From Saccharicrinis fermentans DSM 9555 = JCM 21142 (GTDB lineage Bacteria; Bacteroidota; Bacteroidia; Bacteroidales; Marinilabiliaceae), in assembly GCF_000517085.1 (NCBI RefSeq), contig NZ_KI912107.1, forward strand, positions 5,329,980 through 5,393,979: 64,000 nucleotides of DNA, given 5' to 3'. Positions 20,678-57,422 of this stretch are shown piece after piece; position 1 is the stretch's first letter; each line of letters opens with the position of its first letter. The translations under genes were made by a program, and so were the position numbers. The notes beneath the pieces were generated by a model. It did not search any database. It saw nothing but the letters and a program-made list of their open reading frames with translations, and was not told the DNA's origin.

Positions 20678-21646
20678 TTATCTTTTACTTGTTTTCATGA
20701 GTATAATTATAAAAAAGGGTGCTCCAATGAGCGAAGTGGTAATACCTAAAGGTATTTCCATGGATGATATACTACGTGAAAAATCATCCACAATCATTAA
20801 AAATGAACTACCAATAAGGAAGGAGGCAGGCAAGAGTACACTATTTTTAGGTCCGATGAGCAAACGTGCTATATGGGGGATTAATAATCCTATCCATCCA
20901 ATAATGCCACTGATACTGACCGCTGAAGCAGTCATTAGCGTGGCGACAGAAATCACCAAAAGGCGAAGCCGATCTACATGTACACCTATGCTTTTAGCCT
21001 CTTCGTCCCCAAAGGATAATACGTCTAGTTTCCATCCAGAAAGGGTTAGGGTGATTAATCCCGGAATGGATATCATGGCGATGTATTTGAGGTCTCCCAT
21101 TTCGATGTCGGTTAATCCGCCCATTAACCAATATACGATGGATGGGAGGGTGTCATATGGATCAGCGATGTATTTTAGTATCGAAATAAGTGCAGTAAAT
21201 ACGGTGGCGACAATCATTCCGGAAAGAATAAGGGTAAGACATTTGTCGTGCTTTTTGCCAGTAGACAGACTGATCATATATACGGCCACAACTGCTATGA
21301 TTCCAAAAATAAATGAAAAGGATTGTGTTGCCAGACTACCTAAAGCTAGCAGTATTGCCAAGGCAGCTCCAAATCCTGCTCCTGCTGATACGCCAAGTAT
21401 AGAAGGCGATACCATGGGGTTCCGAAACATGCCTTGGTAAGCAGCTCCTGTTAAAGAGAGTGTGCCTCCTACCAAGAAAGCCGCCAGTATTCTGGGTAGA
21501 CGAATATCGATATAAATGGTGCTTAACTGTGCTATTGATTCGTTACCTGAAAAGGAATACCGTCCTAAAGTTAATGAGACTGCTGCGATGGCAATGTTCA
21601 ATAATATCAGTATGATAAATAGTAGTGATGAAGGCGCTCGTTTCAT
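20678..21646 (-). CDS. FecCD-family ABC transporter permease
   Basis: Inner-membrane permease with about ten hydrophobic segments. The family motifs include RLPRILAAFLVGGTLSLTGA (TM2-3), GLLIPHIARLLIG and GITTSLIGAPFF near the end. It pairs with the FecE-type ATPase 5 bases downstream and the binding protein upstream. I place the start at the ATG at 21646 (MKRAPSS), directly before the first membrane segment. The frame is also open to an ATG at 21733, adding 29 residues. That extension is encoded by an inserted short repeat element whose left junction retains the likely original ATG-AAA start. Which of the two starts is used cannot be told from sequence. Confidence 0.9.
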   Translation of the reverse strand: MKRAPSSLLFIILILLNIAIAAVSLTLGRYSFSGNESIAQLSTIYIDIRLPRILAAFLVGGTLSLTGAAYQGMFRNPMVSPSILGVSAGAGFGAALAILLALGSLATQSFSFIFGIIAVVAVYMISLSTGKKHDKCLTLILSGMIVATVFTALISILKYIADPYDTLPSIVYWLMGGLTDIEMGDLKYIAMISIPGLITLTLSGWKLDVLSFGDEEAKSIGVHVDRLRLLVISVATLMTASAVSISGIIGWIGLLIPHIARLLIGPKNSVLLPASFLIGSSFLMIVDDFSRSISSMEIPLGITTSLIGAPFFIIILMKTSKR

Positions 21647-21727
21647 ATGTTTATTTTTTTTCAAAGGCCATATGGAACTCGCTGAAGCTACTTGTCTCCC
21701 TGCGTGCGAAACAATTCCCAAGGCTCG
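21645..21727 (-). mobile_element. Short start-codon element, copy A (83 bp)
   Basis: One of four related 83-97 bp elements. On the minus strand it runs from CGAGCCTTGGGAATT to AAACATAT and contains the shared block AGTTCCATATG. TTTC flanks both sides (21641-21644 and 21728-21731 on the plus strand). The element separates the probable original ATG-AAA of the permease from the present start, which is formed by its terminal AT plus GAAA. Unlike the other copies it is open throughout in the permease frame. Confidence 0.7.
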
Positions 21728-21787
21728 TTTCATAGTTTTTTAAAATGTAGGTGAACAAGTTGGTTTGCGACATAAATGGCAGTAATA

Positions 21788-26163: not shown

Positions 26164-27327
26164 TTATTTAGTATTGTAAAAGTTACAAAAACGCTTAAAT
26201 ACATTGTTTAATTCACTCTCACTTTGAGCTGCTGATTTTTTGTTGGTGGGGAAAGGATTTTCGTGCGTGTATTCTCTGTCAAAATCAATCTCGTCAACCG
26301 GGATGTTAATATCTCGGTATGCACCTTTTAAAGTATTGATGACTTCGAAAGAGGGTATAACCGTATCTTTTTTTAGGGTGATGGCATAAAAGTGGTTTTC
26401 ATGTCTTTTTAAAAGTTTTTCTCTCAGTTCCCGACCTTTTTTATAATCGAGCATAGCATAGAACACCTCTCCCTCCAGGTGATCTTCTTGCATGTAGTGA
26501 CGAAGTAAGTTGTCTTTTTGTATAAATTTATCCAAGTGTTCTACTAAATATGAGTATAATGCAACATTTGCTTCACTGTCTAAGATGAATTTAGAAACGG
26601 GAGATAAACGGTTAAATGTGGCACCACTGCAAAATAGTCCCACCTTTGCATGGGAGAAGTACTGCTTGTGATTGGTTAGTTTAAGTATCTGAGCAAGGAA
26701 CCCACCTATTGAATAAGCCAGAATGTTAAATTCAAAATCTTTATGGATATAGGGATGCTTGCCTTCTTTGCATTGTTCAATAAACTGAATAACATCATAG
26801 TAAGTTTGTAATCCTGACCATATGAAGCGTTGGGGCATAGCGTGTAGGCGCATACTAATGGCTACGTTGGATAAGGTAGAGTTTAAGACATTGGGGTATC
26901 TCTTTTTTCTTCTTTCACTGAGAAGATACATTTCTCTTTTACTGCTCCAATCCTTAGGCGCACGTTGCATATGAAAAGCCATGGGGAATAATACAATGCT
27001 GCTTCCTGTACCTTGGCAAATTGTTTTTGCCCAAGGAACATATTTTGTCCAATCTTTTTCATTGAAGCCGTGAAATAAAAATATTATTTTCTTTGTGCGC
27101 AGCTTATTGCCCGGTGTTATAATGTGATATGAAAAAGACTTGTTTTCTGGCACAAAAATGTCTTTGATGTGGATGTCGTCTTTAATGGTACCAACATCTG
27201 TATAGAAAGAGTATTTGTGAACTAAATCTAAATGGTGCTTTGTGCAATAATAATCAGTGGTTCCGGGTAGGATTTTATAAGATGATGATTCAAAATTGTA
27301 CTCCTTGCTATCTACTTCGTTTTTCAT
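26164..27327 (-). CDS. Alpha/beta-hydrolase-fold protein, DUF6051-like
   Basis: 387 residues with no signal peptide. An oxyanion-type segment IIFLFHGFNEKDW, a nucleophile elbow AYSIGG (Ser in the GxSxG-like position) and downstream acidic and His residues (ITLKKDTVIPS, EYTHENPFP) fit an alpha/beta hydrolase. The FHGFNEKDWTKYVPWAK region is what I recall from the Bacteroidota DUF6051 family; this assignment is from memory. I chose the ATG at 27327. The longer frame begins at a TTG inside an inserted repeat element. It lies upstream of, and in the same direction as, the uptake locus, separated by a hairpin. The substrate is unknown. Confidence 0.65.
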   Translation of the reverse strand: MKNEVDSKEYNFESSSYKILPGTTDYYCTKHHLDLVHKYSFYTDVGTIKDDIHIKDIFVPENKSFSYHIITPGNKLRTKKIIFLFHGFNEKDWTKYVPWAKTICQGTGSSIVLFPMAFHMQRAPKDWSSKREMYLLSERRKKRYPNVLNSTLSNVAISMRLHAMPQRFIWSGLQTYYDVIQFIEQCKEGKHPYIHKDFEFNILAYSIGGFLAQILKLTNHKQYFSHAKVGLFCSGATFNRLSPVSKFILDSEANVALYSYLVEHLDKFIQKDNLLRHYMQEDHLEGEVFYAMLDYKKGRELREKLLKRHENHFYAITLKKDTVIPSFEVINTLKGAYRDINIPVDEIDFDREYTHENPFPTNKKSAAQSESELNNVFKRFCNFYNTK

Positions 27328-27410
27328 ATATTTAAATTTGTCTTTCAATGGTCATATGGAACTCACCAAGTTTTATTATCTCCAGTGTGTGAATCCATTC
27401 TCATGGCTCG
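27326..27410 (-). mobile_element. Short start-codon element, copy B (85 bp)
   Basis: On the minus strand it runs from CGAGCCATGAGAATG to TTTAAATATAT, with the shared block AGTTCCATATGACCATTGAAA. TTTC is present at both junctions (27322-27325 and 27411-27414). The left flank still reads ATATGAAA, an apparent former start codon, and the right junction forms the present ATG of the DUF6051-like gene. Starting from the former ATG, a 17-codon frame (MKRAMRMDSHTGDNKTW) ends inside the element. Confidence 0.75.
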
Positions 27411-27690
27411 TTTCATATGTATAAATTTATTTTTTAATGCCTTTTCGCGGTAGTTTTGTTTAAATCATTGGTCTTGGAGCAAGTCAGCACTAATGGTTTT
27501 ATGCTAACTGACGTAAGCTATACCGAGTGGCATTTTGTCAAATATTTGTTTCCTCCTGAGCGTGTCAGTCAATTTTACGAGTAGTTAAAAATACAAATTT
27601 GTTTAATTATAGTAGCTGTTTTTAAGCAGTATTTAACGGAGAGCCAACAATGTTATTGTTTTTTAATATTCTCTATTATTATAAATAGCT

Positions 27691-32333: not shown

Positions 32334-32440
32334 GTTCTAATGCTATCATTCGGTTATCACTGTCTATTTGAATATGACAGGATGGATTTAGCAAGAAAAT
32401 TTAATTCAACCATAGGAGAACCAAGAATCTTATGGTATAT

Positions 32441-32596
32441 AGTCTTTGCAAGAAAACTCCAAATACTGCGTTATTCTCATTTTTGAAACAGTCATTTACC
32501 ATCAGTAAACTCCTTGGTTTCAAAAATATCGAAAGCCTTGTCTTTGAAGCTTTCTTATCAAAGACAGAAAAAATAGTCGTTTTCTTGCAGCCACTA
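32441..32596. repeat. 156-bp hairpin-rich repeat, intact copy
   Basis: Outer arms TGCAAGAAAAC (32447-32457) and GTTTTCTTGCA (32579-32589) enclose two inner hairpins. One is TTTTGAAAC/GTTTCAAAA (32481-32489, 32517-32525), which itself holds TTTAC/GTAAA. The other is GTCTTTGA/TCAAAGAC (32540-32547, 32558-32565). A second copy at 41661-41917 differs at five positions and is split by an insertion. Here it lies between lptE and the TPR gene. It could be a MITE-like element or a structured RNA. Confidence 0.8.
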
Positions 32597-32636
32597 TATA
32601 TGAATATATTATTTGCTCACTCCTTATTATTATTTG

Positions 32637-41622: not shown

Positions 41623-41660
41623 TTTTACATTTAAGAGTTGACAAAAAATGATTGTTAGTT

Positions 41661-41917
41661 AGTCATTGCAAGAAAACTCCAAATACTGCGTTATTCTCAT
41701 TTTTGCAACAGTCATTTACAATCAGTAAACTCCTTGGTTTCAAAAATATTGAAAGCCTTGTCTTTGAAGCTTTCATATGATTATAATTTGTCTTTCAATG
41801 GTCATATGGAACTCCCGATGAATTTTAATCATTCTTCTGTGTGTATTTTAGAATGCTAAAATTCATGTTCGTTTCTTATCAAAGACAGAAAAAACAGTCG
41901 TTTTCTTGCAGCCACTA
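41661..41917. repeat. 156-bp hairpin-rich repeat, copy interrupted by a short mobile element
   Basis: Same sequence as 32441-32596 with five substitutions, but split after position 41774 by a 97-bp insertion plus a duplicated TTTC. Removing 41775-41875 restores 156 bp collinear with the intact copy. It fills most of the 307-base gap between the GH57 and CBM48 genes. Confidence 0.85.
41775..41871 (-). mobile_element. Short start-codon element, copy C (97 bp), nested in the 156-bp repeat
   Basis: It is flanked by TTTC at 41771-41774 and 41872-41875. The intact repeat at 32.5 kb has a single TTTC at this point, so the boundaries and the 4-bp duplication are read directly. On the minus strand it runs from CGAACATGAATTTTAG to AATCATAT. 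The block AGTTCCATATGACCATTGAAA is identical to that of copies B and D. Confidence 0.85.
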
Positions 41918-41929
41918 GTTAAAGGTGTA

Positions 41930-56004: not shown

Positions 56005-56028
56005 AATAACCCCTGTGTGGGGGTTATT
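56005..56028 (-). terminator. Hairpin at the end of aroA
   Basis: AATAACCCC/GGGGTTATT with a 6-base loop overlaps the aroA stop codon on the minus strand. The following T-tract (TTCTTAAAAA) is weak. Confidence 0.5.
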
Positions 56029-57253
56029 CTTTGGTAGAAAACTCAAAGCCGTATGCTTTAAGATGTTCCCAGTACTTGGGGTAGGATTTAGAAACCACAG
56101 CGGGATCTTCTATTTGTAAAGAACCAATGGATGAGGCTGCGGGAGCAAAAGCCATGGCCATACGATGGTCTTTATAGGTGGCTATGCAAGGTGTTTCTTC
56201 TTTGTCACAGGTTGTTCCATCCCATATCAAATTGTCTACCTGGTTGGAGGAGAGTATAAACCCCATCTTTTTAAGCTCTGTGATAAGGGCATTAATGCGA
56301 TCTGTTTCTTTGATTTTGAGGGTTTGTAAACCGGTGAAATGAAAAGGGATTCCTAAACAACAACATGTTACAGCAAAGGTTTGTGCCAGATCGGGTTGTT
56401 CTATGAAGTTGTAATTGAAATTTTTGGCAGTGTTACCTGTATTTCTTAAAAGTAAACCTTTCTGAGAAAATTTGTGGCTTACTCCTAATTGATCAAAAAG
56501 CGTTGCTACTTTAGCGTCACCTTGTTCGCTGTAGCGCTTTACGCCCTGTAAGTTGAGCTCACACCCTTTGTTGAGAGCTGCTACTTCAAACCAGTATGAT
56601 GCTGCACTCCAGTCCGCTTCTACGGTAAAGCTTGTGGATTGATAAACTCCTGAAGGTACGGATATTACATTTCCTTTCCATTGTGATTGTATACCATATG
56701 TTTCCATCATTTGTAAGGTCAGATGTATGTATGGTCGTGAAATGATATCTCCTGTTAAGGTCAATTGAAGGCCGTTTTTCATGGAGGGACCAATCATTAG
56801 CAAGGCAGATATGTACTGACTGCTTACATTACCAGGTAGCTCAAGAGCTCCTCCTTCCATGGCGCTGCCAAAAATTCGTAGCGGTGGATAGCCTTCTTTT
56901 TCGATGTATTCTATTTTTGCTCCGAGCTGATTTAATGCTTCTACTAAAATTTTAATGGGACGTTCTTTCATGCGCGCAGACCCGGTGATGGTCCATTGTC
57001 CCACTATCTTTGATAAAAAGGCAGTGAGAAAGCGCATTGTCGTGCCTGCTGCTCCTACATCAAAGGTGTTGCTGTTGGATTGTAAAGCCTTTAGCATGAG
57101 TTGTGTGTCGTCACTATCGGAGAGGTTTTTGATAGGCTGGGCACTGTAAGCTAGCGCATTTAGTATGAGTGCGCGATTACTGATGCTCTTGGATGTGGGT
57201 AGGGCAACTTTATATGGTTTTATATTGGTCGGTGCTGAAATAGTGTATTTCAT
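56024..57253 (-). CDS. aroA: 3-phosphoshikimate 1-carboxyvinyltransferase (EPSP synthase)
   Basis: Sixth step of the shikimate pathway to chorismate. Motifs include the N-terminal LPTSKSISNRALIL, the GAAGTTMRFLTAFL loop, SARMKERPI, and the C-terminal KETDRINAL and YKDHRMAMAF. The 409 residues are somewhat short but complete. The start codon abuts a short repeat element whose end supplies the AT of the ATG. It lies downstream of aroB in the same direction. Confidence 0.95.
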   Translation of the reverse strand: MKYTISAPTNIKPYKVALPTSKSISNRALILNALAYSAQPIKNLSDSDDTQLMLKALQSNSNTFDVGAAGTTMRFLTAFLSKIVGQWTITGSARMKERPIKILVEALNQLGAKIEYIEKEGYPPLRIFGSAMEGGALELPGNVSSQYISALLMIGPSMKNGLQLTLTGDIISRPYIHLTLQMMETYGIQSQWKGNVISVPSGVYQSTSFTVEADWSAASYWFEVAALNKGCELNLQGVKRYSEQGDAKVATLFDQLGVSHKFSQKGLLLRNTGNTAKNFNYNFIEQPDLAQTFAVTCCCLGIPFHFTGLQTLKIKETDRINALITELKKMGFILSSNQVDNLIWDGTTCDKEETPCIATYKDHRMAMAFAPAASSIGSLQIEDPAVVSKSYPKYWEHLKAYGFEFSTKE

Positions 57254-57343
57254 CTGTTAATAATTTTATTTTCAATGGTCATATGGAACTTGTCAAAATT
57301 AATCATTCCCCTCTCCTGTGAGTGAAATAATTCTCATGGCCCG
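57252..57343 (-). mobile_element. Short start-codon element, copy D (92 bp)
   Basis: On the minus strand it runs from CGGGCCATGAGAATTATTTC to ATTAACAGAT and contains AGTTCCATATGACCATTGAAA. It ends in AT followed by GAAA, forming the present aroA start codon. The right-hand repeat is TTTC (57248-57251 on the plus strand), but the other flank reads TCTT, so the target duplication is imperfect and this insertion is probably older. Confidence 0.7.
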
Positions 57344-57422
57344 TCTTATGTGTCCTAAATAGTATTTTTTAGGGTGCAAGAACCCGGTATCATCGTGCTT
57401 GGTTAGACGTGTTAATATTGAA

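Follow-up and report, generated by a model that had tools for sequence, protein, structure and literature searches.

A family of short mobile DNA elements in Saccharicrinis fermentans and its relatives, with most copies at gene starts

The DNA that interrupts a 156-bp repeat in a 64,000-nucleotide stretch of the Saccharicrinis fermentans genome (the whole stretch analysed, hereafter the window) belongs to a family of mobile DNA of about 90-100 bp, numerous copies of which are found in this bacterium and in related ones. Our main reading, to which we give a probability of roughly 0.65, is that the family is a non-autonomous mobile element that inserts behind the ATG of ATGAAA, mostly at gene starts, and ends in a CnnATG of its own. 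Both the mobility of the element and the position of its copies at start codons are well supported. We treat as shown its insertion at a defined point, its growth in tandem, the placement of its right end on start codons and the covariation of CATnnG with CnnATG.

Insertion at a defined point and tandem growth

Comparison of the two repeats in the window, both given without strand, places the intact copy at 32441-32596 and the interrupted one at 41661-41917, the latter a 257-bp composite counting the insert. The net insertion is 101 bp (257 minus 156), in agreement with the 97 bp plus a second TTTC described in an earlier, sequence-only reading of the window, and the repeats, the interruption and three relatives of the insert all lie where that reading had placed them. 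The insert sits between GATAAG and AAAGCTTC. It can be written as a 101-nt element of the hairpin subfamily on the minus strand (41774-41874), running from 41874 to 41774 as AAACGAAC...CATATG and consisting, in that order, of AAACGAAC, a long hairpin, CGGGAGTTCCATATGACC, an A+T-rich stretch and the right end CATATG; its guide is TTCCATATG. The intact repeat, which is the empty site, reads AAG-AAA where the right end of the element reads ATG-AAA, so the right-end ATG was not copied from the target. ATGAAA is common to both ends of the element, and the insertion into the repeat allows a target duplication no longer than GAAA; the cuts would fall within the shared GAAA.

The 156-bp repeat is itself a high-copy MITE with a TANNTA duplication: an identical 6-bp flank, mostly TANNTA, surrounds 27 of 32 intact copies. 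In the window, the intact copy has TATATA at 32436-32441 and 32595-32600, and the composite lies between two copies of TAGTTA (TAACTA on the other strand) at 41656-41661 and 41916-41921. In the 1.044 Mb of this genome examined with a model of the unit (overlapping loci agreed without conflict), 35 near full-length repeats are intact and 12 are interrupted, all at one point; the 35 provide empty sites for the 12 composites. Both ends are readable in 10 composites, and 9 of these, the window copy included, have a perfect 6-bp TANNTA duplication outside the repeat; repeat and insert thus moved together. In the simplest view, the insert had entered the MITE in one older insertion and was then carried by it to 41774-41874. 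The insertion recognized in the sequence-only reading is thus real, but this copy need not have inserted where it is now found. One copy of the 156-bp repeat abuts a RAYT relic (L062).

Empty sites are also found at genes. For a glucokinase-like gene that carries the element here, the ATGAAA start stands without it in 8 of 8 congeners; an element-free orthologue exists in two congeners for a P450-like gene and in one for a cytochrome-b-like gene (all three names were read from translations), and no unit was seen in the 11 fetched stretches with these orthologues. In the empty orthologues the alignment begins at about the start codon, extending at most some 20 bases into the upstream DNA, and for this reason the precise left junction rests on the 156-bp repeat. 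At the compared genes the flanking ATGAAA is probably the old start codon. At 2.73 Mb, the same start is occupied by different units in paralogous genes.

Units also accumulate next to one another. Of two adjacent units, the one resembling the young sequence more closely lies towards the gene in 17 of 25 pairs and away from it in 2, with 6 pairs undecided; the two opposite pairs are a duplicated segment, whose gene-side unit comes from another subfamily. A second family (left end ATGAAACTGGCATGG, right end similar to AGTTTCGCTAATTTTTAAACATATGAAA) forms tandems with the first and gives 19 model matches in the 1.044 Mb; it, too, ends on gene starts (for example, at 870225 and 3476803 of the C3 contig of this genome).

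Family size and placement at gene starts

The pattern of the element's right-hand core has 228 matches (at most 3 mismatches) in the 5.98 Mb of the genome, as against 3 for the pattern read backwards, a control that rules out a chance repeat. In the 1.044 Mb, the unit model gives 162 matches at E<=1e-3. At least one core match is present in 66 of 100 genomes, our own included, single matches being within the range of the control, and at least 10 are present in 20 of the 99 other genomes, with a maximum of 107 in G041. Eight congeners have between 8 and 93 matches each; numbers vary strongly within the genus, from 228 core matches here (G000) to 8 in G001. A variant core is common in G020 (98 matches, compared with 7 for the first pattern). 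Among named records, in a search from which records very near our genome may be absent, the exact core occurs once each in Breznakibacter xylanolyticus and in one Bacteroidales MAG.

In the usual layout, a flanking ATG is followed by AAACGAGCC...GGCGAGTTCCATnnG...CnnATG and then by the AAA of the gene, the final three bases of the element being the start codon of that gene. The gene behind the element thus appears to keep its start, by way of the element's own replacement start codon. The three relatives pointed out in the sequence-only reading are of the same family: near 21645, 27326 and 57252, all on the minus strand, they are full members that end on gene start codons. In copy A (21644-21730; 87 nt) the last ATG, 21646-21644, starts a FecCD-type transport gene (20678-21646), with a flanking ATG at 21733-21731. 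Copy B (27325-27413; 89 nt) provides with its last ATG, 27327-27325, the start of a DUF6051 gene (26164-27327) and is flanked by ATG at 27416-27414. The last ATG of copy C (57251-57346; 96 nt), at 57253-57251, starts an EPSP synthase gene (56024-57253); its left flank is ATA, and its end, CAGATG, is incompletely matched to the guide CATATG. In copy A (window 20678-21733) the flanking ATG shares the reading frame of the gene and no stop interrupts the element; an annotation may therefore begin 29 codons too early.

Of 136 right ends in the 1.044 Mb, 74 supply with their terminal ATG the first codon of an ORF of at least 60 aa, 28 run directly into another unit and 12 lie in the 156-bp MITE; the remaining 22 (15 others and 7 without ATG) fit none of these classes and count against our main reading. 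In longer segments, 103 right ends comprise 52 at starts, 17 intergenic (6 of which precede another unit and 2 an ORF of 60-72 aa), 3 inside genes, 10 in tandem, 3 within the MITE and 18 without ATGAAA, the last of which also speak against our main reading, while the background of ATGAAA outside elements comprises 126 at starts, 180 intergenic and 1037 in genes. Starts thus make up 52 of 69 element ends at starts or between genes, as against 126 of 306 background sites (P ~8e-9), in segments picked around listed matches with at most 1 mismatch, where near-consensus copies are over-represented. Re-sorting by eye, with the result already known, gave 54/63 at starts (P 3e-13); the unsorted 52/69 is the figure we quote. 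Among 28 copies of the youngest subfamily, 23 open an ORF of 60 aa or longer, and 8 match the unit without any mismatch. Start codons may be chosen at insertion, or they may just be tolerated there and kept by selection. The idea that the element encodes a leader peptide was dropped: a stop at codon 14 is common to 46 of 71 units, mostly of one subfamily, and both ATGs are in frame in only 46 of the 71.

An internal guide and the right end

Two stems are suggested by the sequences of the units. One, AACGAG/CGAGTT, is extended by GCC/GGC, GCATG/CATGC or GTCCC/GGGAC and has a variable top; the other, CATnnG/CnnATG, contains the start codon. Folding of single units gave both stems in many of 34 units from other genomes, some folding otherwise with DNA parameters. 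Some units (L245, L246, L247; G041, G052) have small palindromes of other repeat families inserted in or beside the guide region.

The two variable bases of the guide follow those of the right end. Among the matches listed for five genomes (G065, G015, G020, G009 and G022, most from G020), the nn of the guide is the full complement of the right-end nn in 64 of 88 distinct sequences, with wobble pairing in 7 more, compared with a mean of 11.2 and a maximum of 22 in a shuffled control that ignores relatedness; exact duplicates, and 8 rows that had a displaced last ATGAAA or looked spurious, were left out of the 88. The fully matched pairs are of nine dinucleotide types. Across 33 units from other genomes, agreement with the guide is seen for the right nn in 27 cases and for the nn ahead of the left ATG in 5; the right end would accordingly belong with the element and the left flank with the target. 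As for guide and left flank, ATGAAACGAGCC and GGCGAGTTCCAT can pair, with mismatches, but scarcely vary, and the left nn does not follow the guide. In our own genome, the nn of 55 diverged copies changed on one side in 7 and on both sides in 4, an excess of one-sided changes that stands against our main reading.

We propose that the element inserts just 3' of the ATG in ATGAAA, and that its own CnnATG would keep the ATG-AAA start of the gene. The covariation, together with the likeness to IS608 described below, suggests that it moves as a folded single strand, in which the internal TTCCATnnG may pair once with the flanking ATGAAA and once with the element's own right end, and that an enzyme would act in trans. 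In a stronger form of this proposal, the CCAT of the guide reads ATG, and a DNA-guided element programmed to gene starts homes to start codons and regenerates them, grows arrays on the gene side and sets many unrelated genes behind one start-codon hairpin; this form we hold only tentatively, as the odds seem to lean against it.

Transposons of the IS200/IS605 family lack terminal inverted repeats and have folded ends. IS608, of this family, inserts 3' of a short sequence that is retained as its left flank; its internal guide sequences pair with the cleavage sites (PMC5934647). Our element, too, keeps a short left flank, lacks terminal inverted repeats, as noted in the sequence-only reading (its ends in the alignment are AAACGAG and CnnATG), has folded ends and has a guide that pairs with the right cleavage site, in the 64 of 88 sequences from five genomes (shuffled maximum 22). 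It differs in that, at about 90-100 bp, it has no transposase gene between its ends in the DNA examined, which the sequence-only reading had noted; in that one internal guide seems to serve both ends; in that its site is ATGAAA, mostly at gene starts; and in that no Y1 (HUH) transposase moving it was found in our genome or in the fetched loci of relatives. That reading had offered either a plain 4-bp duplication or an IS200/IS605-like element, of which the latter fits better and the former less well; the GAAA it saw at both ends is present, but is only part of the site, the usual flank being ATGAAA at a gene start.

The likeness to other short repeats is more limited. REPs and BIMEs are also high-copy short folded repeats, thought to be moved in trans, but our element has (ATG)AAACGAG in the alignment instead of a GTAG or GTGG foot, and its copies, the pair in L168 apart, do not flank a cognate RAYT gene in the 54 Y1 loci scanned. 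It resembles MITEs, such as the 156-bp repeat around the window copy, in being short, non-autonomous and of high copy number, but has neither terminal inverted repeats nor a demonstrated duplication. Rickettsia palindromic elements are likewise short repeats tied to coding sequence (PMC10969869), but are reported to lie in frame inside genes, whereas our element replaces the start codon. In the literature searched, no description of a start-codon mobile element was found.

Could the copies be cis-regulatory RNA leaders, in which CATnnG pairs with CnnATG in the transcript and hides the start codon, the host keeping the copies and mobility being secondary? Such a leader would suit the start-codon position of most copies, the presence of the start codon within the guide-end stem, the folding of one young unit as RNA into both stems, and the scarcity of changes at the nn sites of diverged copies (6 and 11 of 110, against a mean of 21% elsewhere in the copy). 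We nevertheless think it unlikely: the genes served are diverse, copies occur in the MITE and at non-start sites, copy numbers differ strongly among congeners (228 in our genome, 8 in G001), and no Rfam match was found in the window (at gathering level) or in eight loci (at E<=1).

If the element were an ordinary short transposon, mobilized by a DDE enzyme and truly duplicating GAAA or ATGAAA at its target, this would explain why both ends have the same bases in most aligned copies. We regard this as quite improbable, given that the very ends lack terminal inverted repeats, that the right-end ATG is unlike the AAG of the empty 156-bp repeat, and that the hexamers differ in several copies, with TTGAAA, CTGAAA or GTGAAA on the left and ATGAAA on the right. 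The folded strand might instead be the substrate of a recombinase other than Y1, either a tyrosine recombinase acting on an attC-like hairpin or an enzyme not yet described. The tandem arrays and the imperfect AACGAG/CGAGTT stem with its variable top would be in keeping with this, as would the failure to find a cognate Y1 gene; the covariation of guide and end, on the other hand, recalls IS200/IS605 rather than attC and makes this alternative doubtful.

The search for an enzyme, and implications

Searches of our genome and its relatives with PF01797, and of our genome with a RAYT query, found no cognate transposase or other enzyme for the element, which weighs against our main reading. PF01797 has only four matches in our genome, all broken or partial; it has matches in 18 of 21 relatives, and G014, G022 and G047 carry the element without one. 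A full-length relative with a transposase between the same ends, which the sequence-only reading had proposed to look for, was not found in the DNA examined, nor did the fetched loci of relatives show a long element with such ends. An autonomous long form was rejected: a search for lone left and right ends in the DNA examined gave four lone left ends, three having the next right end 68-262 bases on and the fourth, weak, having it 8.3 kb away.

The RAYT query found in our genome further fragments and one intact 198-aa Y1-like gene. This gene (G000:C3:5296997-5297590; L275:3498-4091) is Y1/RAYT-like, with HFH and YIHNNP motifs, and belongs to a type I-B-like CRISPR-Cas operon, where its neighbours are cas3 and cas4; no unit occurs in the surrounding 7.5-kb stretch. 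It was rejected as the mover because its relatives do not track element number, with 0 matches in G041 (107 core matches) and 6 in G027 (19). In two RAYT remnants (C3:1082354-1082596 and 2480032-2480190) only the beginning and the end of the gene survive, as though its middle had been deleted. Among RAYT (TnpA-REP) enzymes the nearest parallel is the Bacteroidetes subclass 2.6, described as flanked by atypical structures (PMC6006769). As mover of our element RAYT was rejected, since the RAYT genes read carry other flanking palindromes, as do the Y1 genes read in relatives. In 54 Y1 loci scanned, copies at E<=1e-3 occur in three only (L063, L138 and L168). The two copies in L168 each overlap the 5' end of a RAYT gene, in reverse orientation and away from the start codon; two RAYT-adjacent copies in G009 lack a start codon, their ends being CAGAAGAAA with either TTCCTTCTG or TTCCCTCTG. 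Loci L280-L309 contain one copy only, in L284, about 1 kb away. No lagging-strand bias was seen, another point against our main reading: relative to an origin and a terminus estimated by GC skew, 77 of 132 elements are codirectional with replication, as against 308 of 573 ORFs.

Accounts of short mobile elements usually place them between genes or within them. An element that lies exactly at the start codon and supplies it would show how mobile DNA can enter important genes, shift the point at which translation begins in many genes at once and lead start-site annotation astray. The covarying guide makes the choice of target directly testable, and, if an enzyme is found, it would be a small, naturally start-codon-directed insertion system.
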